This document shows, piece after piece, positions 2,237 through 64,000 of a stretch of DNA of 64,000 bases (position 1 is the first letter of the stretch; each line of letters opens with the position of its first letter). A program made the position numbers and the translations under genes. The stretch spans positions 39,353 to 103,352 of the forward strand of contig MLAK01000582.1 in assembly GCA_001839685.1 (NCBI GenBank), read 5' to 3'. Source of the DNA: Tritrichomonas foetus. Its lineage: Eukaryota; Parabasalia; Tritrichomonadida; Tritrichomonadidae. The notes under the pieces are model-generated. The model was not told the origin of the DNA, made no database searches, and saw only the letters and a program-made list of their open reading frames with translations.

Positions 2237-5200
2237 TTAAATTGCAGAAAGCTCAAATGTTTGCTTGGATTTGAGTTCTGGAGTAGGCCACATCATGACC
2301 AATGGATATTGGCCGCCAACATAAGTCACAACTTGGCCATTTTGTTTAGCATATATCATTCCATCTTTATAAACAAAGTGTTGATTATGTCTTCCATGAC
2401 ATGGGAAGAGATAAAATGGAGTTCCTTCTGGTGGGTTCCAATTGTAGTGATCTGCAACATCAAAAACTAATTCTTCTTTTTTAACACTGCTAATAATCGT
2501 GTCATGATCATTTTCACCAAACTTGAATAATTGGTAAATATTTCCTGGATTGTAATCTTCGATTGAAAGCTTCATTCCACATTCATTTAAGAGTCCTTGT
2601 TCGATAAATGTAATAGCCATATTCTTCCTTCTTGTTCCATTTCCTTCAACTGGCACCGAAATCTTGAAAGTGAATAATTTTCCAACGTATCTCTTATTAC
2701 CTCCTTCCATTGGGATTCCACGACAAATATGTGGCTCACCTCGAACAAGTTCTCTTGTATGTGTATGAAGATGTGTAGGATTACTTTGTGAACTGCTTCC
2801 ATCATTTCTTTGTTTCATTAAATCAACAAGTTTACTTTCTGCGTTGATTCTAGCTTCTTTCTCCTTTTGTACTGCTTTCTCAGCGGCTTCTCGTTTTAAT
2901 TTCTCTTGTTCTAAAAGTTTGTTGTCGTTCGATCGAGGTGATGAGTTTCCTCCTGAAGAAGTAGTCTTAAGTCTAACCAATTCTTTTTGAGCATCTTTAG
3001 CTGCGTTTTCTGCATTGATTCTAGCTTCTTTTTCATTTTGTGCAGCTTTTTCTGCTGCTTCTCGCTTTTGTCTTTCTAGTTCTAAAACATTTACATCAGA
3101 TGACCTCGGCGATGATGCTTTAAGACGATTAATTTCTTTTTCTGCTTCTTTAACAGCGTTTTCAGCATTAATTCTTGCTGTTCTTTCCTTCAAGACTGCT
3201 GTTTCAGCTGCTTCTCTCTTTGATCGTTCTAGTTCTAACTCATTTTTATTTGACAGAGGTCCTTTGGTTGATGATCCTGTGGACTGAGGATATAATTTCG
3301 GTGATAACTTCTTTAATTCTTCAATTTGTATCTCGAGGGCTTCTCTCTTTGCCTTTTCTTTGGCAAGTTCGTTTGTAAGTGAATCGACAATGTCATTATT
3401 ATGATCACCATCATTGTTAACTTGATCAAGATCAAGTTGAATATCACGTGATTGAACTTTTGGATTCATTGAGTTAGAGGATGAAGAAGAAGTTGTATTA
3501 TTCTTCTTGGTTGATAATCTACTTCCATTCTTTGGTGCCTTGGGCGATGGTTTTTGTTGATTTTGAATATCAGCAAGTTTGTTTTCGGCCGCTATTCTAG
3601 CGCTTCTTTCTTTAACAATTGCATTTTCTGCGGCTTCCCTTTTTCCACGCTCTAATTCGAAATCCTTGTCTCTAGTTGGTGATTTTGGTAATTGTGCAAG
3701 CTGCTTCTTCAATTCCTCTAATTGCTGCTCTAATGACTCTCTCTTAGATTTTTCACTTGCAAGATCATTGCGAAGATTTTCAATAATAGTTATATAGTAT
3801 TCATTGTCAGCATTACCATTATCGAATAATTGAATATCCCTGGTTTCAAGAACGGGTTTATTTGACTTTGATAATGGGGAGGAATTCTTTGGAGACAATC
3901 CTTTTCCTCCTTTAGATAAGGATGCTCTTTGTAGGTTTTGAAGTTCCGCAAGTTTGTTTTCGGCAACAATCCTGGCACTTCTTTCTTTAATGATCTCTTT
4001 TTCTGCATCTTCCAATTTCTGACGATCAGGAATACTACCTTTATTAGTTGAAGGAGCTTTTCCAGCAACTGAAGTTTTAGTCTTAAGTTCCTTGGTCAAA
4101 GCTTCATTCTTTGCTTTTTCTTCAGCAAGTTGTGTTTTAAGTTGTTCTAAGTCATCTGTATCTATGTTATCAATATCAAGTCTAATACCACGAGATATAA
4201 CTTCTGGATTTGTGTTTGCTATACCAGAAGATGTTTTAGTTCTTGTTCCTCGAGGGCTTGTTTTTCCAGATTCTTTCTTAGAAGTTTTTCCAAGAGGCAC
4301 TTTAGGTGACTTCGACAATTCTAAAAGTTTCGATTCAAGCTCTTTGATCGTTTTTTCGGAAGCAATTCGAACGGATTTTTCTTTAATAACAGCATTTTCT
4401 GCTGCTTCTCTCTTTTTGCGTTCATTGTCAAGTTCATTTTGGAGATTATTGTTGTTGGAGATTTTAGATAATTCGTTTATCTTTGAGTTTAAGGCACTTA
4501 TTTCCTTTTCTGCGATTTGACGTTTTTCTCTTTCACTTTCTAATTCTTTCCTGATTAGTTCGATGATTTCATTCGAAATATTGCCATTTTGCAAAGGATC
4601 TATCTTGAGTTTATTAGAAAGACTTTTTGTTTGTGATATGTATGGACCANTCTTNCCATTGGNNATGCCTTTGTTCNCAATCTTTAGATTCGATGAAAGA
4701 CTACATGTTGGTGATAAATGTGAAACATTCTTGCCATTGGATAAGCCTTTGTTCTCAATCTTTAGATTCGATGAAAGACTACATGTTGGTGATAAATGTG
4801 AAACATTCTTGCCATTGGATAAGCCTTTGTTCTCAATCTTTAGATTCGATGAAAGACTACATGTTGGTGATAAATGTGAAACATTCTTACTTGTTGGTGA
4901 TAATTTAGTATAAACTTTTTCTGCGTGTTCTCTTCGAGCTTTTTCATCATCTGCTCTTGATCTAAATTCTGCTGCATTTTTCTCTGCCGCCACTCTTGCT
5001 TTATTTTCAATATTTGCTTTTTCTTTGGCTTCTAGGAGTTCATTTTCCAAATCTTCTCTCTTTTGTCTTTCAATTTTCAGTTGTCTAGAAAGATCACGAT
5101 AGTCTTTGGTTTCTCTCCTCAATTTTTGAAGTTCATTTTCGGCATCTTCCCTCTTCTTTCTTTCCTTGGCTTCAAGCTCTGCTGATCTAGAAGCCATCTT

Positions 5201-8200
5201 TTGTGCCTGTTCTTTAGCACTTACCTCAAGAGCCAATTTACTCTCGACTTGTTTAATAGAAAACTTGGCGTTGTTTTCAGCTTGTTCTCTCTTCTTCTTT
5301 TCTTCTTCTAACCTCATAAGAGCCTCATCTAGTTGAGCTTTTTCAACAAGATTCGTTATGGACTGAGATGGAGCTTGAGGAGTTATTCCTTGTGTCCTTG
5401 GATTCTTTTGTGATGTTTGTGATCGTGATCCTTTTTGGGGTGCAGAACCGGAATCATTGAGATTGAGATCAACTCCACGTATTTCAATAGGTGGAATATT
5501 TTTCAGGCGCTTTAATTCGTTTTCTGCAAGTTCGCGTTGCTTTCTTTCTTCATTAAGCAATTTTTCATATTCTTCTCTCTTTTCTCTCTCCTGTCTTTCT
5601 CTTGCAAGAACTTCATTGATAGTTTTACCATTATTCTGCTTCTCAGATATTTGACGTTGAGCTAAATTACTGGTTTGTTGTTTTTTCAGTGCTTCGACTT
5701 CTTTGAATGCTTTTTCAAGTTCAGCTTCTTTCTTTTTGAGTTCTTCATGTTTCTTGATTCTTTCTGCTGCCTCAATTCTCTCGCGTTCAGCCTTTTGTCG
5801 TTTAGATCTTTCACGAGCTAGTTTTTGGGCTTTTTCTGCTGCTTCTCTTTCATCTCTTTCTTGAGCTTCTCTTCTTGCCCTTTCCACAAGATCTCTGCGT
5901 TCTCTTTCAGCAACATTTTGAGCAACTTTTTCGGCTTCTTCTCTGAGTTTCTTTTCTTTCCCGATCTGTTCTAATGCTTCGATGAGTTGTTTTTCGAGAT
6001 TTTTACGTTTGTTCTTTTCTACTTCAAGTGCAGCTTGTGAATGTGTGTTTTCAAGTTTCTTAATTTTGTCATTTAACTCTTTCAAAGTTTTTTCATATTC
6101 TGCAATCTTTGATTTGTGCGTTATTTCTCTCTTATCCGCCTCTTCCTGAATCTCTTTCAACTTTGATAATTGATCATAGGTTTTCTCGTAAGCTTCTTTG
6201 CAGGTAGTTAAGCGTTGATTGACCTTCTTATAATCAATTTCCAATTGAGCATATTGCTTCTTTAATGTATCCAATTCATTAGCTAAATATTTCGATGATG
6301 AATTGGAATCATTAAGTTTCTTTTCTATTGATTCTCTAAGAGCTTTTTCTTTGAGAATTTCATTGTTCAATTGTGTTTCTGAAGTTTTATTTGTCTTCGA
6401 TGCTTTATTGGCATCTGTCTTTAACCTCATATTTTCATTCTCTAATTGCTCTATTGTTTTCTTAAGGTTATTATTTTCTTTAGTAAGTTTAGTAAACAAT
6501 TGTTTTTGATCGCTCATTTCTTTTTCAATCTTAATTCTGAGTTCTTTTTCTTTCACAAGAACTATCTGCAATTCTCTATCGAGAGTCTGTTGATCAGTTT
6601 TCGAAGAAGAGCTTGAATTATCATTTTTCTTTTGATCAATCATCCTCTTCATTGCTTCATTCAGCTTTTTGTTATCTGCTTCCAATTCATTTAGTTTTAA
6701 TTGACACTTTTGCCGTTCACTTTCAGATTTTTCTAGTTTCTTCTTCAATTCATCGATTTCTTTTCCGAGCAATGTTGATTTGCTTTTGCATTCATTAACA
6801 GCTTTTTCATTGGCTGCACGAAGAGATTTCTCTTTTGCTAAGAGAGTTTCGGCTTCTTTGATTCTGTTATAGTCACCTTTTAATTTTTCTAATTGATCAG
6901 AAAGGTTATTAGCAATCTGTTTTTGTTCATCACATTGTTTTTCTGCTGCTTCAGTTTTGGATTTTTCGGCTTTAATAGCCTTTTGAGCTGCTTCTAATTT
7001 CTTTTTTTCTGATAGACTTGAATTCTTTAAATCCTCAATAGTTTTTTCAGCAGCTTCACGTTTATCTTTTTCTTGAGCAGCTAATTTATTAAGTGATTTG
7101 GCTTTGTCCTTTTCAGTTGCTAACTCTTTCTCTAACTCTTCTATCTTCGATCTTTCATAGGCAATTTCTTTCTCTAAAGATTCCCTGAGGGCTTTTTCTG
7201 CTGTGTTTGAATCAGATGACTGTGCTAAAGTATTTCTGATGTTTTCAAGTTCTTTCTCAATAGCTTCTCTTAGTTCTTTTTCTTGGTTTGCTGCATTTTC
7301 TGCATTTTCTCGTTTTGATTTTTCTTCTTCCACTATTCTTTCAGTAAGTTCTCTTTTAGATTTCTCATCTTCTATCGCTTTTTCAGAATTTTCACGTTTA
7401 GACTTTTCTTCTTCAATTTCTTTATCTTTTAATTCAGTTTTGCTTTTCTCTTCTTTTAATTCTTTTTGTAGTCTTTCAATTTCTTTCTCGGCTTCTTCTC
7501 TTTTAGATTTNNNNNNNNNNNNNNNNNNNNNNNNNNNNNNNNNNNNNNNNNNNNNNNNNNNNNNNNNNNNNNNNNNNNNNNNNNNNNNNNNNNNNNNNNN
7601 NNNNNNNNNNNNNNNNNNNNNNNNNNNNNNNNNNNNNNNNNNNNNNNNNNNNNNNNNNNNNNNNNNNNNNNNNNNNNNNNNNNNNNNNNNNNNNNNNNNN
7701 NNNNNNNNNNNNNNNNNNNNNNNNNNNNNNNNNNNNNNNNNNNNNNNNNNNNNNNNNNNNNNNNNNNNNNNNNNNNNNNNNNNNNNNNNNNNNNNNNNNN
7801 NNNNNNNNNNNNNNNNNNNNNNNNNNNNNNNNNNNNNNNNNNNNNNNNNNNNNNNNNNNNNNNNNNNNNNNNNNNNNNNNNNNNNNNNNNNNNNNNNNNN
7901 NNNNNNNNNNNNNNNNNNNNNNNNNNNNNNNNNNNNNNNNNNNNNNNNNNNNNNNNNNNNNNNNNNTTTTTCAGAATTTTCACGTTTAGACTTTTCTTCT
8001 TCAATTTCTTTATCTTTTAATTCAGTTTTGTTTCTCTCTTCTTTTAATTCTTTTTGTAGTTTTTCAATTTCTTCTTTCTTTAATTGTAAGTTCTTTTCAA
8101 ATTCCTCCATTTTTGCTTTACCATCAGCAATATCTTTCTCTAATTGATCTTTTATAGCTTTTTCAGCAGAATTTGAGTCTGAAGACTCGGATAACGCTTT

Positions 8201-11200
8201 CTTGAGTTTTTCTATTTCTTTCTCGGCTTCTTCTCTTTTAGATTTTTCAGTTTGAGCCTCTTTCTCTTGAGCTTCTCTTTTTTCTTTTTCATATTTCACT
8301 TCCTTTGTGAGTATTTCGTATTGTTCTTTAATAATAATCAATTCTTTTTCTAGCACCTCTTTTTGCTCTTTTTCTGTTCTAATAATTTCTTCAAATTTGG
8401 TAATTGTAATTCTGAGTTCGATGATCTCTTTTTCCACAATTTCTCTTTTAGTTTTCTCTTCAGTTTTTTCATTTTCAATGCTTTCTATTAGTTTCAATAA
8501 TTCTTCTAGTTGTGTTTCGGTTTCCTCTCTTTTGGTTTTCTCCGCGGCTGCAGCTTTTTCTGCGGCCTCACGAGATTCTTTTTCTTGAGAGCAATATGGG
8601 CATACTTTACTTTCATCATGTTTAAGATTATTCAGGAGTTCTTGAATCTTTTCTTCTGCAGTTTCTTTCAATTTCTTTTCGTCTTCTTCTCTCTTTTCTG
8701 CATCTTCTCTTTTTTGAATTTCTTCTGCTAATCTATTTTCAAATTCTTGCTTCATCTTTTCTAATTCATCATCATTGATATTGAGTTCAACATCTCGTGA
8801 AACAATTTCTGGTTCATCAGAAAATGCATTCTTGATTAAAGCAAGCTGAGAGCAAAGAATTCCTTCGTCAATCGGTTTCAATAAATCATCAGGATCAAAT
8901 AAGCATGGAATTCCATTGTCTTCAAGTACTTTACAGACAAGCTCTGCGTTTGCTTTATCATCATCTTTATGAAGTGACTTGAAATTAACTTGATCTGGAG
9001 CATATCCGTTAAGGTATGCACATAGAGCAAGTGGAACTTTCTTGAAGCCATGCAATTCTAAGTAATTTTTAATTTCATCATTAGCAAAATGCATCAGTTT
9101 TAATGATTCACTTGCACTTTCAATTTCTGGTGGTATTTCGCCTTCAATAGAATTCAGATATGAAGAATTGGCTTTAGAAATAGAATATTTTTGAATTAAA
9201 GTCGAAATTAAGCTAAATATTGATGTTGTGTTTTGTTGGGTTATTTTCTTTGCATTTACAATAGGACTAAATTTCGCTCCATCTCTCTTGAATAAGTTTA
9301 TTCCAGTTTCATTATTTTTAACCTTTTGAGTATCATTACTTGGATTTTGTTCAAATGATACATTATTTTTCGTAAGAATCTCAGACAGGATAACCAATAC
9401 AGTTCCATCATTGAGATCTTGTGTTACATCATCAATTGAAATTGAGCGCTGTGATATAATGGAATTTACCCATTTGGTATAATATTTAATTAAATTAGAA
9501 CGAAGGACACATTCTTTCTTGATTAAAGATATTTGTGTAATAAAAGCTCTTTCGTCAACAAGAGAGGCTAAATCATTAACATCTAAAACTGCAGGAACTC
9601 CGATTTCATTCATAACTTGGACGGCAACTTCTGAACATTTTCGATCATCAGTTTTATCTAATGATGAAAAGTTAACTTGTTGTGGTGCATATTCGTTCAA
9701 AATAGCGCATAATGCAAGCGGAATGGATTTAAATCCTCTTACTTCTGGATATTTTTGCACAATTGAATATGCCCATTCCAATAATTTTTGTGTACCGTTC
9801 CCATATTCCTCATTTTCATGTGAATCCAAAGAATTGGCTGAATCAATTGAATATTTTAATATCAAAGACCAAATCATGTTTAAGATCATTACAACATTTC
9901 GATTAATAATTTCAGTAGATTCGATTTGATCAATAAATGTAACTTTGTCATACTTAAACAAATTAACAGATAAATCAATATTTTGAGCCATTTGTTTTTC
10001 ATCTTTAGGTGCAATCTCCCATTTATTTTCGGGTATCAGATGAGTTAAAACTTCAGCAAGATTAACAAGAACTGTTCCATCATGAACATCCTTAGTAATA
10101 TCAGTAATGGTGATATTTCTTGAAGCAAGTTTGCTTTGAGTCCAGCGGGAAAACACTTTGATAAGTAGATTTCTGAACATAAACTCAGTCTTGATCAATG
10201 CAAGTTGTGCAGCAATAACTTTTTGATTTTCTAACTTTCCAAAATCTTCCCAGTCAAGAAGAAGAGGAATACCATTATTCGTGCATGTTTGACAAATGAG
10301 TTTAGATAAGGCTTTTTGATCATTCTTGTTAATTGAAACGTAATTGATTTGCTTTGGAACAAAAGTATCCAAAATGGCAACAAAAGCCAATGGTGTTGGT
10401 TTAAAATCATTAACCTCACTATATTTGTTTGTTGCTCTTTTTGCCCAAGCTAATAATTTTCCAGGTTCATCTAAATTTTGATCATTCGAATCTTTTTGAT
10501 TAATATCAAATGAATTTGCTGATTTTATAGAATATTTAACAATTAAAGACCAGAAAAGTTCAAGGATAACTTGAACATTTTTTTCAGTGATTCCCTTTCC
10601 TTCAACACTTTCATCAAAGGATACACCATCACGTTTGAATAATTCAATTGCTGTATTACAATTGTTAAGTTTTTGATCATCAGTTGTTGGTTTTGGTTCC
10701 CATTTTTGACTCATTTTTGTTAGAATTTCAGCTAAATTCATCATCACCGTACCATCATGAGTTTCTTTTGTAATATCTTCAACAAGAATATTCTTTGGTA
10801 ATAGTTTATTGCTTGTCCATCTGGAAAATACTTTAATGAGAATGTCATCATTTGATTCCTGGGAAGCCTGTTGTAGTAGTGGAGTAGGACCAGGACTTTG
10901 AATTGGTGTGAAAACTCCTATATTTCCAGCAGCAGAACTTGATGCTGAAATTCTTCTCTTGAATTCTTTCTTCATCATTGAAATTTGAGTACAGAGTGTC
11001 TTTTCATCGACTTGGCCAACAAGATCTTCCCAATCAAGAAGTATTGGTATACCAATTTTCTCACATGTATTGCAAACAAGCTTGGCGCACGCAGGAAGAT
11101 CAGTCCTATCTAATGTTCCAAAGTTTATCATATCTGGAACATAATTATTTAACAAAGCACAAAAAGCAACTGGCAATGGTTTGAAGTTTTCAACACCTTC

Positions 11201-11656
11201 ATATCCAGCAGTAGTTTTCAGAGCCCATCCCATGAGTTTTTGTGTGGCAGATTGTCGGACACTTCCTGAACCATCTGAATCAATGTCATTAACCATTTGG
11301 ATAGAATACCTTAAAATTAACATCCAAATTAAACCGAGTGTAAGTGTGACATTTCCATCACTGATATCCTTTCCAGAAATTCCAATGATTTTAACACCGT
11401 CGGCTGTAAACATCTCAATAGCTAAATCACAATTTTGAACTTTTTGCATAGCAAACTTTGGTGGATTGGTCCATCGGCGTGGAGGTGTCTTTCCCGTTAA
11501 AATTTCAGCAAGATGCATTAGAATCGTTCCATCAAGGAGATCTTTCGTTACATCAGTGCAGGGAATTGAGCGCACCATCAATTTGTTCGCCGTCCAACGG
11601 GAGAAAACTTTGATTTGAAGTGGTACATAATCTGCATTAATTTTGCCTAAAGACAT
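2237..11656 (-). CDS. Giant calponin-homology / coiled-coil / ricin-like protein
   Basis: A cytoskeletal protein of about 3,139 residues including a gap. Residues 14-945 hold four tandem pairs of calponin-homology (CH) domains: about 14-232, 273-494, 497-716 and 721-945. Each pair starts with a (L)IKVFSRWT-like block and carries a GLIWMLILRYSI-like segment, as in filamin/cortexillin actin-binding domains, so actin binding is likely. Residues 950-2900 are highly charged coiled coil built from KSKREEAEK-like units, interrupted by Ser/Pro/Gly-rich linkers. A CPYC motif lies at 1019-1022. About the last 180 residues (GGNKRYVG... to FELSAI) resemble a ricin-type beta-trefoil. The ATG at 11656 is the first in frame. 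An assembly gap (7511-7966) keeps the frame, and ambiguous bases sit in a tandem repeat near 4650-4677. The CH call is firm; the trefoil call is tentative. Confidence 0.85.
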   Translation of the reverse strand: MSLGKINADYVPLQIKVFSRWTANKLMVRSIPCTDVTKDLLDGTILMHLAEILTGKTPPRRWTNPPKFAMQKVQNCDLAIEMFTADGVKIIGISGKDISDGNVTLTLGLIWMLILRYSIQMVNDIDSDGSGSVRQSATQKLMGWALKTTAGYEGVENFKPLPVAFCALLNNYVPDMINFGTLDRTDLPACAKLVCNTCEKIGIPILLDWEDLVGQVDEKTLCTQISMMKKEFKRRISASSSAAGNIGVFTPIQSPGPTPLLQQASQESNDDILIKVFSRWTSNKLLPKNILVEDITKETHDGTVMMNLAEILTKMSQKWEPKPTTDDQKLNNCNTAIELFKRDGVSFDESVEGKGITEKNVQVILELFWSLIVKYSIKSANSFDINQKDSNDQNLDEPGKLLAWAKRATNKYSEVNDFKPTPLAFVAILDTFVPKQINYVSINKNDQKALSKLICQTCTNNGIPLLLDWEDFGKLENQKVIAAQLALIKTEFMFRNLLIKVFSRWTQSKLASRNITITDITKDVHDGTVLVNLAEVLTHLIPENKWEIAPKDEKQMAQNIDLSVNLFKYDKVTFIDQIESTEIINRNVVMILNMIWSLILKYSIDSANSLDSHENEEYGNGTQKLLEWAYSIVQKYPEVRGFKSIPLALCAILNEYAPQQVNFSSLDKTDDRKCSEVAVQVMNEIGVPAVLDVNDLASLVDERAFITQISLIKKECVLRSNLIKYYTKWVNSIISQRSISIDDVTQDLNDGTVLVILSEILTKNNVSFEQNPSNDTQKVKNNETGINLFKRDGAKFSPIVNAKKITQQNTTSIFSLISTLIQKYSISKANSSYLNSIEGEIPPEIESASESLKLMHFANDEIKNYLELHGFKKVPLALCAYLNGYAPDQVNFKSLHKDDDKANAELVCKVLEDNGIPCLFDPDDLLKPIDEGILCSQLALIKNAFSDEPEIVSRDVELNINDDELEKMKQEFENRLAEEIQKREDAEKREEDEKKLKETAEEKIQELLNNLKHDESKVCPYCSQEKESREAAEKAAAAEKTKREETETQLEELLKLIESIENEKTEEKTKREIVEKEIIELRITITKFEEIIRTEKEQKEVLEKELIIIKEQYEILTKEVKYEKEKREAQEKEAQTEKSKREEAEKEIEKLKKALSESSDSNSAEKAIKDQLEKDIADGKAKMEEFEKNLQLKKEEIEKLQKELKEERNKTELKDKEIEEEKSKRENSEKXXXXXXXXXXXXXXXXXXXXXXXXXXXXXXXXXXXXXXXXXXXXXXXXXXXXXXXXXXXXXXXXXXXXXXXXXXXXXXXXXXXXXXXXXXXXXXXXXXXXXXXXXXXXXXXXXXXXXXXXXXXXXXXXXXXXXXXXXXXXXXXXXXXXXXXXKSKREEAEKEIERLQKELKEEKSKTELKDKEIEEEKSKRENSEKAIEDEKSKRELTERIVEEEKSKRENAENAANQEKELREAIEKELENIRNTLAQSSDSNTAEKALRESLEKEIAYERSKIEELEKELATEKDKAKSLNKLAAQEKDKREAAEKTIEDLKNSSLSEKKKLEAAQKAIKAEKSKTEAAEKQCDEQKQIANNLSDQLEKLKGDYNRIKEAETLLAKEKSLRAANEKAVNECKSKSTLLGKEIDELKKKLEKSESERQKCQLKLNELEADNKKLNEAMKRMIDQKKNDNSSSSSKTDQQTLDRELQIVLVKEKELRIKIEKEMSDQKQLFTKLTKENNNLKKTIEQLENENMRLKTDANKASKTNKTSETQLNNEILKEKALRESIEKKLNDSNSSSKYLANELDTLKKQYAQLEIDYKKVNQRLTTCKEAYEKTYDQLSKLKEIQEEADKREITHKSKIAEYEKTLKELNDKIKKLENTHSQAALEVEKNKRKNLEKQLIEALEQIGKEKKLREEAEKVAQNVAERERRDLVERARREAQERDEREAAEKAQKLARERSKRQKAERERIEAAERIKKHEELKKKEAELEKAFKEVEALKKQQTSNLAQRQISEKQNNGKTINEVLARERQEREKREEYEKLLNEERKQRELAENELKRLKNIPPIEIRGVDLNLNDSGSAPQKGSRSQTSQKNPRTQGITPQAPSQSITNLVEKAQLDEALMRLEEEKKKREQAENNAKFSIKQVESKLALEVSAKEQAQKMASRSAELEAKERKKREDAENELQKLRRETKDYRDLSRQLKIERQKREDLENELLEAKEKANIENKARVAAEKNAAEFRSRADDEKARREHAEKVYTKLSPTSKNVSHLSPTCSLSSNLKIENKGLSNGKNVSHLSPTCSLSSNLKIENKGLSNGKNVSHLSPTCSLSSNLKIXNKGXXNXKXGPYISQTKSLSNKLKIDPLQNGNISNEIIELIRKELESEREKRQIAEKEISALNSKINELSKISNNNNLQNELDNERKKREAAENAVIKEKSVRIASEKTIKELESKLLELSKSPKVPLGKTSKKESGKTSPRGTRTKTSSGIANTNPEVISRGIRLDIDNIDTDDLEQLKTQLAEEKAKNEALTKELKTKTSVAGKAPSTNKGSIPDRQKLEDAEKEIIKERSARIVAENKLAELQNLQRASLSKGGKGLSPKNSSPLSKSNKPVLETRDIQLFDNGNADNEYYITIIENLRNDLASEKSKRESLEQQLEELKKQLAQLPKSPTRDKDFELERGKREAAENAIVKERSARIAAENKLADIQNQQKPSPKAPKNGSRLSTKKNNTTSSSSSNSMNPKVQSRDIQLDLDQVNNDGDHNNDIVDSLTNELAKEKAKREALEIQIEELKKLSPKLYPQSTGSSTKGPLSNKNELELERSKREAAETAVLKERTARINAENAVKEAEKEINRLKASSPRSSDVNVLELERQKREAAEKAAQNEKEARINAENAAKDAQKELVRLKTTSSGGNSSPRSNDNKLLEQEKLKREAAEKAVQKEKEARINAESKLVDLMKQRNDGSSSQSNPTHLHTHTRELVRGEPHICRGIPMEGGNKRYVGKLFTFKISVPVEGNGTRRKNMAITFIEQGLLNECGMKLSIEDYNPGNIYQLFKFGENDHDTIISSVKKEELVFDVADHYNWNPPEGTPFYLFPCHGRHNQHFVYKDGMIYAKQNGQVVTYVGGQYPLVMMWPTPELKSKQTFELSAI
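4577..4888 (-). repeat. 78-bp in-frame tandem repeat in the giant CH gene
   Basis: Three near-identical 78-bp units (26 codons, with the core SHLSPTCSLSSNLKI) and a fourth diverged unit toward the C-terminus. The spacing is exactly 78 bases between matching positions 4683, 4761 and 4839. Ambiguous bases at 4650, 4655, 4663-4664 and 4677 fall at the border with the diverged unit, as expected if copies were collapsed or vary between alleles. Confidence 0.9.
7511..7966. other. Assembly gap (456 N) inside the giant gene
   Basis: A run of N bounded on both sides by almost the same coding repeat (KELKEE, then TELKDKEIEEEKSKRENSEK). The gap therefore sits in long coding repeats, and the true length and copy number are unknown. 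Because 456 is divisible by three, the frame appears continuous. Confidence 0.95.
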
Positions 11657-54118: not shown

Positions 54119-54952
54119 ATGTCATCAACTTTGTCACCAAGTGGAGGGATTCCAGCACATTGGGAGTTTCTAAATGACGATGACAAAGCTGAGTACATCG
54201 CAATAACCACACGCTTCCACGAGGAGATCGCAAAATCCAAAAGAGGTGAAAGAATCGAAGTTTTCGTTAATCGGTTGAAAACAATACGCGACTACATCAA
54301 CAGAGACGTCAACGATCAATGGAAACGGATCCTCGTGTGCGGAATCATGTTTCTCAACAACGCGTTAGGCATAAATATCCAACAGCTCAGACTGATGATG
54401 GGAAAGTGCAAATCTTCAATCAATGGGTCACTGCAACAACTCGGATATATGGCAAAGCCATCAACCCACGAGATTGATCAAGAGATTACCAAAAAAGTGC
54501 CACTTTTAAAAGACGATCATTTTGAATTGAAAAAATGGACAATCAGATATGGAGCATTTCCAGAAGAGAAAGAGAAAATTCGTATTGAAAAACATATCCC
54601 TAATAAAAATAATTCGCGAAATGCAAATAAAAATGTGAACCAAAATGTCATGAATTCCTTCAACAATAATTTGATTGAGTCTATTCAAACTCAAAATATC
54701 AACATTTTGAATCCACATCAAAATATGTTACAGACTCAAATTCTAATTCAGAATCAGGCTCCACAACAGATATTCAATGTCAAACCAATTCAATTGCCTG
54801 CGATGGAACCGATCGCTTCCCAGCCTTCTTCTCCAATCTCCGCCCAGGAAGTTATTCGGGCAGTAAATAATCACTTCCCCTGCCCAGCTAAGTGCCGCCA
54901 TAAGTTTTATGACCTTATTCATTGTTCTATCTCGATTCAGACTGAAGCTTGA
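54119..54952 (+). CDS. Initiator-binding-domain (IBD) transcription factor
   Basis: A 277-residue protein whose residues 8-125 match the Initiator-binding domain of Trichomonas IBP39, the DNA-binding module that contacts the Inr and is found only in parabasalids. Key blocks are ITTRFHEEIAKSKRGERIEV, FVNRLKTIRDYI, WKRILVCGIMFLNNALGINI and QLRLMMGKCKSSINGSLQQL. After it comes a basic Asn-rich linker (about 165-205), a Gln/Asn-rich part and a C-terminus with CPAKCRHKFYD. It lacks an obvious IBP39-type C-domain that would bind the RNA polymerase II tail, so it is a paralogue that may regulate rather than recruit. The start is the first ATG. Confidence 0.85.
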   Translation: MSSTLSPSGGIPAHWEFLNDDDKAEYIAITTRFHEEIAKSKRGERIEVFVNRLKTIRDYINRDVNDQWKRILVCGIMFLNNALGINIQQLRLMMGKCKSSINGSLQQLGYMAKPSTHEIDQEITKKVPLLKDDHFELKKWTIRYGAFPEEKEKIRIEKHIPNKNNSRNANKNVNQNVMNSFNNNLIESIQTQNINILNPHQNMLQTQILIQNQAPQQIFNVKPIQLPAMEPIASQPSSPISAQEVIRAVNNHFPCPAKCRHKFYDLIHCSISIQTEA

Positions 54953-56627: not shown

Positions 56628-56635
56628 CTAGGTAC
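56628..56635. repeat. Left target-site duplication of transposon copy 1
   Basis: CTAGGTAC immediately left of the element. The same eight bases follow its right end at 57732-57739. Confidence 0.9.
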
Positions 56636-57731
56636 AGATGTATACAAACTAACTAGCTCTAGATGTAGAAGACCATTGAGAGATCTAAATGAATAATTGT
56701 TGATATTATTGTCATCTAAATATTATTTAATTGTAATCCTATTAATAATATATAAATATTATAATTTAAAAATCAAGATACAGAGAAAACCAAATCCAAA
56801 AAAAAATTGTGAGAAAAAAATAAGCCCAACAGAAATTTCTGAGAATTATTGAGATAAAAAGTGATTTTATAGCATTAATATCTTGATTATTTCTTATCAT
56901 AAATCGTTCTTTTTATTATCATATGACCCTCCATCGAAAATTATAATGTTTTCCAAAATACAAAAATGAAGTATAAAAAAAATATTAATAATTTTGATAT
57001 AAATANAAAAAATTTAGGCATCAATGAGAAGATTACGAATGTTTTGCCATCTAATTGGCGAGTCATCAGAAAATTCNCTTGGCATCGAGTCTGGAAAAAA
57101 ACATATTGGATTCCATTTTTCTTGATTTGGTCTTTCAATCGTTGTATCTGTATCCCTGCTTGAGAATGTGCTGTTGAGGACTGCCAGTCTATTTTCTTCA
57201 TATACTAAAATTTTATGACAGAAAAGATTTCAATACATTCATATTTGTTAAATGGAAATTGAATTAATTCAACATCACTGAGTTAAAACTATCAAAATTT
57301 TCGCGATTTTTAATTAAAAATCGATAGAAGAAGTGTAAATAGAATTATGGGAAGCAGTNTTATAATCTTTGTGATTCTTGGAAAAAAATCTTCTCTCAAT
57401 TTTTTTTTAGGCTTTCTCCAAAATCGCTCTTTTTTCGGTTTAATTGTTGCAAAATTTCAAAACTATGAATAAATATGGCTCATAACTATAAAATATAGAT
57501 TTAACAATTGACTGAAAGCTGTTCACCCGAAAACTGAAACAATAGCTTCTTCAGAATCATTTTCGAAATATTTTTGAATTCGACCATTTGCGAAGTTTGC
57601 GATAAGGGAAATTTTCGTCATTCTTTTAGCTATTTGGGTTTTGATTTTTGACTGATGGTATTAAGTAATACTGATGATAAGGATCATTTGAGTGATTTCG
57701 TACGTTAAGACTATTTGGTTTGTATACATCT
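56636..57731. mobile_element. 1096-bp non-autonomous DNA transposon, copy 1
   Basis: The element starts AGATGTATACAAAC and ends with the inverse, GTTTGTATACATCT; 16 of 17 terminal bases match in inverted order. It is flanked by a perfect 8-bp target duplication. A copy of identical length lies at 62905-64000, differing at roughly a dozen sites plus three ambiguous bases here (57006, 57077, 57359). It has only one small frame (86 codons, minus), so it cannot encode a full transposase and needs help in trans. An 8-bp duplication suggests hAT, P or Merlin-type transposition; the superfamily is not settled. Confidence 0.9.
56941..57201 (-). CDS. Element-borne 86-codon frame, copy 1
   Basis: Starts MKKIDWQSSTAHSQAGIQIQ, then RLKDQIKKNGIQYVFFQTRC, and ends in a Phe-rich hydrophobic part (about 60-82) forced by AT-rich DNA. 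The first 55 residues look like normal protein, and TCATAAAATT stands 7 bases before the ATG as an Inr. It may be the N-terminal remnant of a deleted transposase or a small expressed protein. Two ambiguous bases affect this copy. No family is recognised. Confidence 0.35.
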   Translation of the reverse strand: MKKIDWQSSTAHSQAGIQIQRLKDQIKKNGIQYVFFQTRCQXNFLMTRQLDGKTFVIFSLMPKFFXFISKLLIFFLYFIFVFWKTL

Positions 57732-57739
57732 CTAGGTAC
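57732..57739. repeat. Right target-site duplication of transposon copy 1
   Basis: CTAGGTAC immediately right of the element, identical to 56628-56635. Confidence 0.9.
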
Positions 57740-59961: not shown

Positions 59962-61239
59962 ATGATCACTGCAATCGTTGGAGCCAACTGGGGTGATGAA
60001 GGAAAAGGCAAAATAACTGACATGCTTGCCCATGAATCTGATATTGTTTGTCGTTTCCAAGGAGGTGCAAATGCTGGTCACACGATTATCAACGACTACG
60101 GAAAATTCATTTTACATCTTTTGCCATCAGGCGTATTTAATCCAAATTGTACATGCTTTATTGGAAATGGTGTCGCTCTTGATGTTAACGAATTCCGAAA
60201 AGAATTGGCACAAATTGAAGCTCAAAATGTTCCAAAGCCAAAAATTGCCATTTCTGAAAGAGTTCAAATTCTTATGCCATATCATAAACTTCTCGATCAG
60301 TATGAAGAAGAAAGATTAGCAAATAGGCAATTTGGTTCAACCAGATCAGGCATCGCTCCATTCTATTCCGATAAATATGCTAAAATTGGATTCCAACTCT
60401 GGGAAATTTTCGATGATTCATATTTCAAAGACAAACTTCATAATGTTTTAAGTATTAAAAACTTGATTCTTGAACATGTTTATCATAAGCCTACCTTAAA
60501 CTTTGATGGAATATATAATGAAGTAGTCTCATATCGTCCAATTATTGAGCCATATATTGTTCAACCAGTTGAATGGATTCATCAAGCAATTAAAGACAAC
60601 AAAAAGATTCTTCTTGAAGGACAACTTGGTTCATTAAAAGATCCAGACATGGGAATTTATCCATTCACAACATCATCATCACCAATTGCTGGATTTGCTT
60701 CAGTTGGTGCTTCTATCCCACCTTATTTAATCAAAGACATTATTTGTGTTGTTAAAGCTTATTCTTCAGCTGTTGGAGCTGGCGCATTTGTTTCTGAAAT
60801 TTTTGGAGAAGAAGCAGAAGAGCTCAGACAAAGAGGAGGTGATGGTGGTGAATTTGGTGCCACTACAGGAAGACCCCGACGAATGGGCTGGTTTGATTGT
60901 GTTGCAACTCGATATGGATGCATGTGCCAAGGCGCCACTCGAGTCGCTTTCACTGTTCTTGATGTTTTAAGTTACCTTGATGTAATTCCAGTTTGTGTTG
61001 CTTATGAACTTGATGGGCAACAAATACATGAATTCCCAACAACTTCTAAATTGGATCGTTGCAAACCAGTTCTGAAGGAGCTTCCTGGTTGGAAGACTGA
61101 CATTCGTGGAATTACAAAATATGAAGACCTTCCAGAAAATTGTCGGAAATATGTCGAATTTGTGGAATCTCAAATTGAATGTCCAATTAAGATAGTTTCC
61201 AATGGTCCTGCTAGAGCAGATATTATATATCGTGAATAA
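59962..61239 (+). CDS. purA: Adenylosuccinate synthetase
   Basis: A 425-residue enzyme that joins IMP and aspartate using GTP, the first step from IMP to AMP. The start has VGANWGDEGKGK (residues 6-17, catalytic Asp12), followed by QGGANAGHT with catalytic His40. STRSGIAPFYSDK, LLEGQLGS, FTTSSSPIAG and GATTGRPRRMGWFD supply the IMP, GTP and aspartate sites. Length matches bacterial and eukaryotic enzymes (about 430). All key residues are intact. Trichomonads cannot make purines de novo, so it would act on salvaged IMP. The stop is in a TAAA context. Confidence 0.95.
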   Translation: MITAIVGANWGDEGKGKITDMLAHESDIVCRFQGGANAGHTIINDYGKFILHLLPSGVFNPNCTCFIGNGVALDVNEFRKELAQIEAQNVPKPKIAISERVQILMPYHKLLDQYEEERLANRQFGSTRSGIAPFYSDKYAKIGFQLWEIFDDSYFKDKLHNVLSIKNLILEHVYHKPTLNFDGIYNEVVSYRPIIEPYIVQPVEWIHQAIKDNKKILLEGQLGSLKDPDMGIYPFTTSSSPIAGFASVGASIPPYLIKDIICVVKAYSSAVGAGAFVSEIFGEEAEELRQRGGDGGEFGATTGRPRRMGWFDCVATRYGCMCQGATRVAFTVLDVLSYLDVIPVCVAYELDGQQIHEFPTTSKLDRCKPVLKELPGWKTDIRGITKYEDLPENCRKYVEFVESQIECPIKIVSNGPARADIIYRE

Positions 61240-62796: not shown

Positions 62797-62904
62797 TAAA
62801 ATCTTTGGTAAATTTACGGTGTGTCATTCTCAATTTTTCATAATGCTCTTCAATTATTTTCAGTATCATTTCAAAATTGAATTGATTTCAAGTAACCTTT
62901 CTAT

Positions 62905-64000
62905 AGATGTATACAAACTAACTAGCTCTAGATGTAGAAGACCATTGAGAGATCTAAATGAATAATTGTTGATATTATTGTCATCTAAAAATTATTTAAT
63001 TGTAATCCTATTAATAATATATAAATATTATAATTTAAAAATCAAGATACAGAGAAAACCAAATCCAAAAAAAAATTGTGAGAAAAAAATAAACCCAACA
63101 GAAATTTCTGAGAATTATTGAGATAAAAAGTGATTTTATAGCATTAATATCTTGATTATTTCTTATCATAAATCGTGCTTTTTATTATCATATGACCCTC
63201 CATCGAAAATTATAATGTTTTCCAAAATACAAAAATGAAGTATAAAAAAAATATTAATAATTTTGATATAAATAAAAAAAATTTAGGCATCAATGAGAAG
63301 ATTACGAATGTTTTGCCATCTAAATGGCGAGTCATCAGAAAATTCACTTGGCATCGAGTCTGGAAAAAAACATATTGGATTCCATTTTTCTTGATTTGGT
63401 CTTTCAATCGTTGTATCTGTATCCCTGCTTGAGAATGTGCTGTTGAGGACTGCCAGTCTATTTTCTTCATATACTAAAATTTTATGACAGAAAAGATTTC
63501 AATACATTCATATTTGTCAAATGGAAATTGAATTAATTCAACATCACTGAGTTAAAACTATCAAAATTTTCGCGATTTTTAATTAAAAATCGATAGAAGA
63601 AGTGTAAATAGAATTATGGGAAGCAGTATTATAATCTTTGTGATTCTTGGAAAAAAAGCTTCTCACAATTTTTTTTTAGGCTTTCTCCAAAATCGCTCTT
63701 TTTTCGGTTTAATTGTTGCAAAATTTCAAAACTATGAATAAATATGGCTCATAACTATAAAAAATAGATTTAACAATTGACTGAAAGCTGTTCACCCGAA
63801 AACTGAAACAATAGCTTCTTCAGAATCATTTTCGAAATATTTTTGAATTCGGCCATTTGCGAAGTTTGCGATAAGGGAAATTTTCGTCATTCTTTTAGCT
63901 ATTTGGGTTTTGATTTTTGACTGATGGTATTAAGTAATACTGATGATAAGGATCATTTTAGTGATTTCGTACGTTAAGACTATTTGGTTTGTATACATCT
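62905..64000. mobile_element. 1096-bp non-autonomous DNA transposon, copy 2
   Basis: Begins AGATGTATACAAAC and ends GTTTGTATACATCT exactly at the last base of the window, giving the same 1096-base length and orientation as copy 1. The two copies differ at about a dozen sites, roughly 99% identity by eye. The left flank is CTTTCTAT (62897-62904); the matching duplication should be the first eight bases beyond the window. This copy has no ambiguous bases. Confidence 0.9.
63210..63470 (-). CDS. Element-borne 86-codon frame, copy 2
   Basis: The same frame as in copy 1 (56941-57201), intact and without ambiguous bases; one codon clearly differs (His for Gln near residue 50). TCATAAAATT at 63478-63487 is an Inr-like site 7 bases upstream. 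Both copies keep the frame open, but at 99% identity that is weak evidence for selection. Confidence 0.35.
   Translation of the reverse strand: MKKIDWQSSTAHSQAGIQIQRLKDQIKKNGIQYVFFQTRCQVNFLMTRHLDGKTFVIFSLMPKFFLFISKLLIFFLYFIFVFWKTL

Follow-up and report, generated by a model that had tools for sequence, protein, structure and literature searches.

Family A of Tritrichomonas foetus is very likely a high-copy, non-autonomous cut-and-paste transposon family, presumably of the DDE type, that probably arose when a longer element lost internal sequence and that in some copies carries a second element, B, nested in its left end, probably through repeated insertion. Taken alone, A is a non-autonomous DNA transposon of an ordinary kind; what makes it interesting is the nesting targeted to its end. 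For its movement we propose that a transposase supplied from elsewhere would bind the 14-17 bp ends and would excise the 1096-bp element, and that a staggered 8-bp cut at insertion would generate the flanking duplication, the latter being observed.

Two copies of A lie in the window (the whole 64-kb stretch of DNA that was analysed, 64,000 nucleotides). In the following features, copy 1 and its duplications were read directly from the sequence and the filler from sequence comparison; TIR denotes a terminal inverted repeat:

56636..57731, plus strand: copy 1 of the non-autonomous family A transposon, 1096 bp
62905..64000, plus strand: copy 2 of the family A transposon, 99.1% identical to copy 1, stopping exactly at the window edge
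56628..56635, no strand: left target-site duplication of copy 1, CTAGGTAC
57732..57739, no strand: right target-site duplication of copy 1, CTAGGTAC
56636..56652, plus strand: left TIR of copy 1, AGATGTATACAAACTAA, 17 bp with one mismatch against the right end
57715..57731, minus strand: right TIR of copy 1, AGATGTATACAAACCAA in inward reading
56642..56649, plus strand: ATACAAAC inside the left TIR, the 8-bp site of B insertion in other copies, uninterrupted here
56941..57201, minus strand: decayed small reading frame, counterpart of the 115-aa ORF in the 2161-bp relative
57122..57157, no strand: 36-bp filler standing in for 189 bp of the 1249-bp form
57158..57731, plus strand: right 574 bp, a 97.4% match to the right end of L090:953-3113
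62897..62904, no strand: left flank of copy 2, CTTTCTAT, whose right partner falls in an assembly gap (L010, N)

The first-pass annotation had described copy 1 as a complete insertion with a perfect 8-bp duplication, and the 1096 bp of 56636-57731 indeed have CTAGGTAC on each side. The 17-bp TIRs with one mismatch that it had reported, AGATGTATACAAACTAA and AGATGTATACAAACCAA, pair exactly at positions 1-14, differ at position 15, match at positions 16-17 and differ again at position 18. The second 1096-base copy, which it had put at about 99% identity, differs from copy 1 at 13 positions, three of them N in copy 1, leaving 10 called differences. Its view of a recently moved, non-autonomous DNA transposon is likewise supported. 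The two copies share one orientation, lie 6269 bp apart with different left flanks, and fall outside the listed ORFs of at least 150 aa; a gene for adenylosuccinate synthetase (59962-61239; Pfam E 1.3e-160) stands between them. The GC content of A is 26.8%, that of the window 32%. As read in the copy L062, the decayed frame of the 1096-bp form is 86 aa long and has been changed by the deletion and the 36-bp filler, while window copy 1 has N at two places within the 56941-57201 frame.

Elsewhere in the window, positions 2237-11656 (minus strand) hold an intronless ORF of 3139 aa that matches the calponin-homology domain (PF00307) five times and has internal repeats of 42-bp and 78-bp spacing (7043-8325 and 4599-4888). 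At 54119-54952 (plus strand), 1.7 kb from copy 1, lies a gene whose product has the initiator-binding domain IBD (PF10416, E 3.7e-38); IBD is not known outside parabasalids and is a marker of parabasalid transcription.

The genome search covered a 63.7-Mb assembly of 1064 contigs, in which the encoded IMP dehydrogenase (L099:1456-2967, 503 aa) shows 503 of 503 residues identical to PDB chain 1ak5_A, the T. foetus enzyme. The 14-bp end of A, AGATGTATACAAAC, occurs there at 544+545 = 1089 places, whereas its reversed control occurs at 0+0; thus the ends are not chance matches, and 1089 exact ends correspond to about 500-550 copies of A. The exact left end including TAACTAG, AGATGTATACAAACTAACTAG, was found 242+244 = 486 times. 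When whole elements were scored, all of the best 40 among 615 candidates spanned positions 1-1096, and the copies read were mostly of one length.

Target-site duplications were assessed on 63 end pairs with differing flanks, de-duplicated by flank; nine pairs with N at a flank, the inner A of the A+B composites L068 and L070 among them, were set aside. Among the resulting 54 gap-free sites, 49 showed a perfect 8-bp duplication, two a 9-bp duplication (L031, TCAAATTAT; L056, GAAGGAAAC) and three none (L006, L048 and L089); in all 49 the match stops at 8 bp. The same termini and the 8-bp duplication recur in other genomic copies, in line with the first-pass annotation. The 8-bp duplications are AT-rich, with a weak preference for T at position 2 (23/49) and A at position 7 (26/49), both being present in 14. 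The 49 comprise forms of 1066-1103, 1249-1260, 1771-1999, 2151 and 2161 bp, with 26 being exactly 1096 bp. Mean pairwise divergence among 35 lone 1096-bp copies was 0.73% (maximum 1.7%), in a sample that leans to close relatives because its members were picked partly as the best matches of the window copy.

An origin of these repeats in misassembly or segmental duplication, and not in transposition, is extremely improbable: the assembly does contain many gaps and some copies end in N, but duplications of 49 different sequences at 54 gap-free sites, together with 1089 ends, argue against such an origin, as do the different left flanks of the window copies and their separate places in the tree.

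Some end sequences depart from the common pattern. At L065:487-528 (C101) three tandem copies of the 14-bp end of A, one of them mutated, adjoin a 49-bp piece of its left end. A variant of the right end, AGATGTATACAG, accounts for 52 of 76 places in a search for A-like ends. Self-insertion of A was considered for this excess and rejected on comparison of coordinates at C108, C110, C162 and C173, where AGATGTATACAG occupies the place of the right end in an element of 1096-1097 bp and is thus an end variant; a duplicated end is the apparent explanation at C161.

The first-pass annotation had further expected longer relatives with the same ends, among them an autonomous one. Longer relatives exist, and most of those looked at are A with B in its end. 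Of the autonomous relative a deleted remnant was found, carrying a 188-aa transposase-like ORF (L090), but no full DDE transposase with the same ends came up in the searches described below. The remnant, L090:953-3113, is 2161 bp long, has A ends and an 8-bp duplication, ATCTAAAC, and combines an ORF-bearing A with a portion of B. It has its right end in common with the window element, over the 574 bp listed above and a further 147 bp at 98.0% identity. On the strand that reads inward from the right end it carries a 115-aa ORF (L090:1476-1823) and then the 188-aa ORF (L090:2065-2631), which is truncated, contains CPYC...HHQC (a CxxC...HxxC motif) and LLLDGTTK, and ends in a few residues of B-derived sequence. 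The region of the 115-aa ORF is retained in the 1249-bp form; a long ORF is lacking from the 1096, 1999 and 2151-bp forms and is present, truncated, in the 2161-bp form. Family A would thus probably have arisen by internal deletion of a longer element, whose coding strand would run from the right end through the small ORF and then the transposase ORF, with L090 as its putative remnant.

We regard the 188-aa ORF as a putative transposase by its position, its zinc-finger-like motif and the mobility of the family, and not by proven homology, because its Pfam, protein and hAT profile matches are not significant. Against Pfam it gave no meaningful match (best E 0.18); in the protein collection no relative appeared at E<=1 (28 candidates; proteins of about 103-329 aa); and no homologues were present in viral contigs. 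A match to an alphavirus protein among PDB sequences (E 0.02) was taken as chance. In the whole assembly the ORF found itself and three partial or decayed fragments, of 74, 44 and 59% identity. This search, together with end spacings among the 100 listed of the 1089 places, yielded no complete transposase with the ends of A, and by coordinates no facing pairs 0.5-10 kb apart occurred among the 14 and 76 places where other families might have an A-like end.

Several candidates for a fuller element were rejected: i) the 1771-1999 and 2151-bp forms, in which the extra 903 bp are B (895 bp) plus an 8-bp duplication, the shorter forms having internal deletions or gaps; and ii) a 3124-bp pair in C55, which proved to be a gap of 2448 bp with a left end on either side.

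As to the superfamily, there is slightly less than an even chance that A and B are divergent hAT members moved by a hAT transposase encoded in this genome. Both families have 8-bp duplications, those of A with the slight T2 and A7 preference given above (a weak nTnnnnAn tendency), the remnant ORF has a zinc-finger-like N-terminus, and the genome does contain hAT-type transposases (11 PF05699 matches). Moreover, LLLDGTTK of the ORF aligns with LILDAGT of the PF05699-positive L098 (26 columns, 31% identity); the comparison profile was built from L098 and three relatives, and its aspartate stretch lines up with that of the L090 ORF. On the other hand, this profile alignment is insignificant (hhalign E 0.14, probability 0.4%), the HMM score of 0.6 bits is lower than the best of 500 shuffles (7.9), and a placement of the L090 ORF through L096-L098 was therefore rejected. 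The ORF has no match to PF05699, DUF659 or zf-BED, and lacks the C-terminal part; a hAT transposase would have catalytic and C-terminal dimerisation domains (PF05699, PF04937). Three of the 11 hAT loci (L096, L097 and L098; about 2.7-3 kb read per locus, half of L096 being gap) have no end within three mismatches of the TIR of A. The hAT end consensus starts with pyrimidine-A-purine-N-G, and the ends of A and B, which begin with AGATG and AAAAG respectively, do not fit it. L098 (C1016:123900-126900) and L097 (C108:102200-104900) themselves hold uninterrupted ORFs of 837 and 644 aa with hAT dimerisation domains, and only three proteins, at 26-31% identity, were found as relatives of L098.

A and B could instead belong, with a probability approaching but not reaching one half, to another superfamily that duplicates 8-9 bp (Merlin, Mutator-like, P, Sola1 or KDZ) or to an undescribed parabasalid one. 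In the searches made, the 188-aa ORF had no recognisable relatives outside this genome, and a zinc-finger-like N-terminus with an aspartate stretch is not unique to hAT; on the other side, the ORF has no Merlin, MULE, P or KDZ match in Pfam. The described parabasalid DNA transposons TvMULE (Mutator-like) and IS481EU resemble A in their short inverted ends, according to their reports (PMC2725143, PMC10045372), but 8 bp (49/54 sites in A) fits neither the 10-14 bp that TvMULE2-4 of T. vaginalis are there said to duplicate (PMC2725143) nor the approximately 4, 15 or 25 bp given for IS481EU, whose ends are TNT...AYA or TGT...ACA (PMC10045372). The remnant ORF also has no MULE domain, and A was set apart from both families by their descriptions, not by their sequences. 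We can thus only infer a DDE or hAT assignment, because the database and profile comparisons of the 188-aa ORF are unconvincing.

Element B also occurs on its own. Among the best 40 of 135 candidates, 10 B copies lay outside A, nine of which were read (C256, at a contig end, was left out). B at these loci is 895 bp long with the ends AAAAGTACACAACC, and seven of the nine showed an 8-bp duplication: TTTATTTC, AGAAAATC, AGTTTACC, TATTATTC, TAATGAAC, GTTTTAAC and, at C919, ATGCTTTC, the last read by eye because the end of B is mutated there. The two loci without a shown duplication are L101, where the flanks differ, and C525, where the right side is unreadable. The base preceding the left end of B was C in eight of the nine loci. 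The end of B matches that of A at 10 of 14 positions (probability for a random 14-mer of this GC, 0.0009). The same right flank follows B in L101 and in C301:3090-3150, while the left flanks differ, one of them being the end of A; recombination between B copies is the likely source of this common flank.

In the 1999-bp form, B sits in the left end of A, in the order AGATGT, ATACAAAC, B, ATACAAAC, TAACTAG, and the length adds up (1096 + 895 + 8 = 1999 bp). The junction AGATGTATACAAACAAAAGTAC was found at 46 exact places in the assembly, all marking one fixed 8-bp site. At 41 of these 46 (the count omits C48, C379, C390, C443 and C712) B had one orientation in 40 cases and the opposite in one, L105, the inner side of which is a gap. 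A junction pattern able to fit either end of A matched the left end 18 times and the right end 0 times, exact matches only being counted. A further 19 inner junctions included 12 left-end junctions, all among the 18 exact ones; in the remainder, foreign flank follows B at C301 and C474, other sequence stands at C490, part of the junction is missing at C392 and C430, and C394 and C492 run into gaps. All 15 composites read at both ends had outer 8-bp duplications. Composites L068 and L070 may be built differently or misjoined, because each has an intact left end of A on the far side of a gap.

Since insertion of B duplicates ATACAAAC, the outer 14 bp of A, AGATGTATACAAAC, stay intact. The outer duplications indicate that the composites probably still transposed, as units, although B landing in an A that was already inserted would give the same outer duplications as movement of the composite. 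We put forward tentatively, with confidence somewhat under one half, that B repeatedly picks ATACAAAC in the left TIR of A and thereby rebuilds the 14-bp end, leaving a mobile host that carries B.

How many insertions lie behind the composites was judged from the orientation, divergence and phylogeny of the copies. Our reading is that a few B insertions at one site were followed by amplification and some exchange; the opposite orientation, the diverged B copies and the tree tests suggest that B inserted more than once. It is possible, but rather doubtful, that a single B insertion was spread by transposition and recombination with no repeated targeting. Such a history would be in keeping with the 18 of 18 exact inner junctions in the left end under a pattern that fits either end, with the one orientation at 40 of the 41 junctions read, and with the right flank common to C301 and L101, a sign of recombination. 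The common composite B also barely differs from the B of L100 and L101 (18 copies; mean divergence 0.24%, maximum 1.6%). Against it stand, besides the inverted B of L105: i) the B elements of L083 and L087, which differ at 27 of 894 positions, versus 11 of 1242 in their A parts (Fisher p 0.00035, uncorrected and post hoc); ii) rejection on the A part of all composites as one clade, with AU p 0.0044 when 12 composites were set against 41 lone 1096-type copies and p 6e-8 for all 15 composites versus 46, a rejection that holds both ways, the inner A of L068 and that of L070 being left out of the lone class; and iii) the weak clustering of the composite label on the tree, with 12 changes versus a shuffled mean of 13.6 (73 of 500 shuffles were as low as 12). 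Resolution of the A tree is low, however, with a star on 1 of its 55 inner branches, and the clade and clustering results could also stem from gene conversion between copies. Repeated insertion remains our preferred account: B, with its similar ends, 895-bp length and 8-bp duplication, would have entered one fixed left-end site of A, probably more than once, and the resulting A+B composites would apparently still have been transposed.

MITEs are usually under about 800 bp, AT-rich and non-coding, with high and uniform copy number. A has 26.8% GC and approximately 500-550 copies, mostly of one length among those read, but is 1096 bp long. Like Ds-type deletion derivatives and MITEs of DNA transposons with 8-bp duplications, it has short inverted ends, no transposase, an 8-bp duplication, hundreds of near-identical copies, and size classes that have the ends of a larger coding element; it differs from them in that its parent is seen only as a truncated remnant and its superfamily is unproven. 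As for the nesting, IS231A in the termini of Tn4430 and multimers of MITEs are likewise cases in which one mobile element prefers the terminal repeat of another; those cases are bacterial or from plants and insects, whereas here two trichomonad families with similar ends meet at one fixed 8-bp site. In T. vaginalis, a TvMULE1 lies nested in another repeat and is suggested to have been copied with that repeat (PMC2725143, PMC10045372). Text searches of the literature found no published description of family A, sequence-based searches, Repbase and supplementary material being outside their scope.

At an estimated 0.9% of the assembly (approximately 540 copies of 1096 bp each in 63.7 Mb), A is relevant to T. 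foetus assembly, annotation and strain typing. According to published descriptions, an early T. foetus draft of 3730 contigs captured under half of a genome of roughly 161 Mb; the KV-1 assembly measures 148 Mb, DNA transposons making up about 30% of it and unclassified repeats 16% (PMC12428144, PMC11415386). The composites amount to a natural end-swap, in which everything inward of left-end bp 14 has been replaced and outer duplications were nevertheless found in 15 of 15. If B does insert into A as we read it, the terminal 14 bp on the left side of A would be enough for transposition, and the transposase may belong to an undescribed parabasalid lineage. Recurrent insertion into the end of another family, if true, would provide a simple hitch-hiking route for non-autonomous elements.
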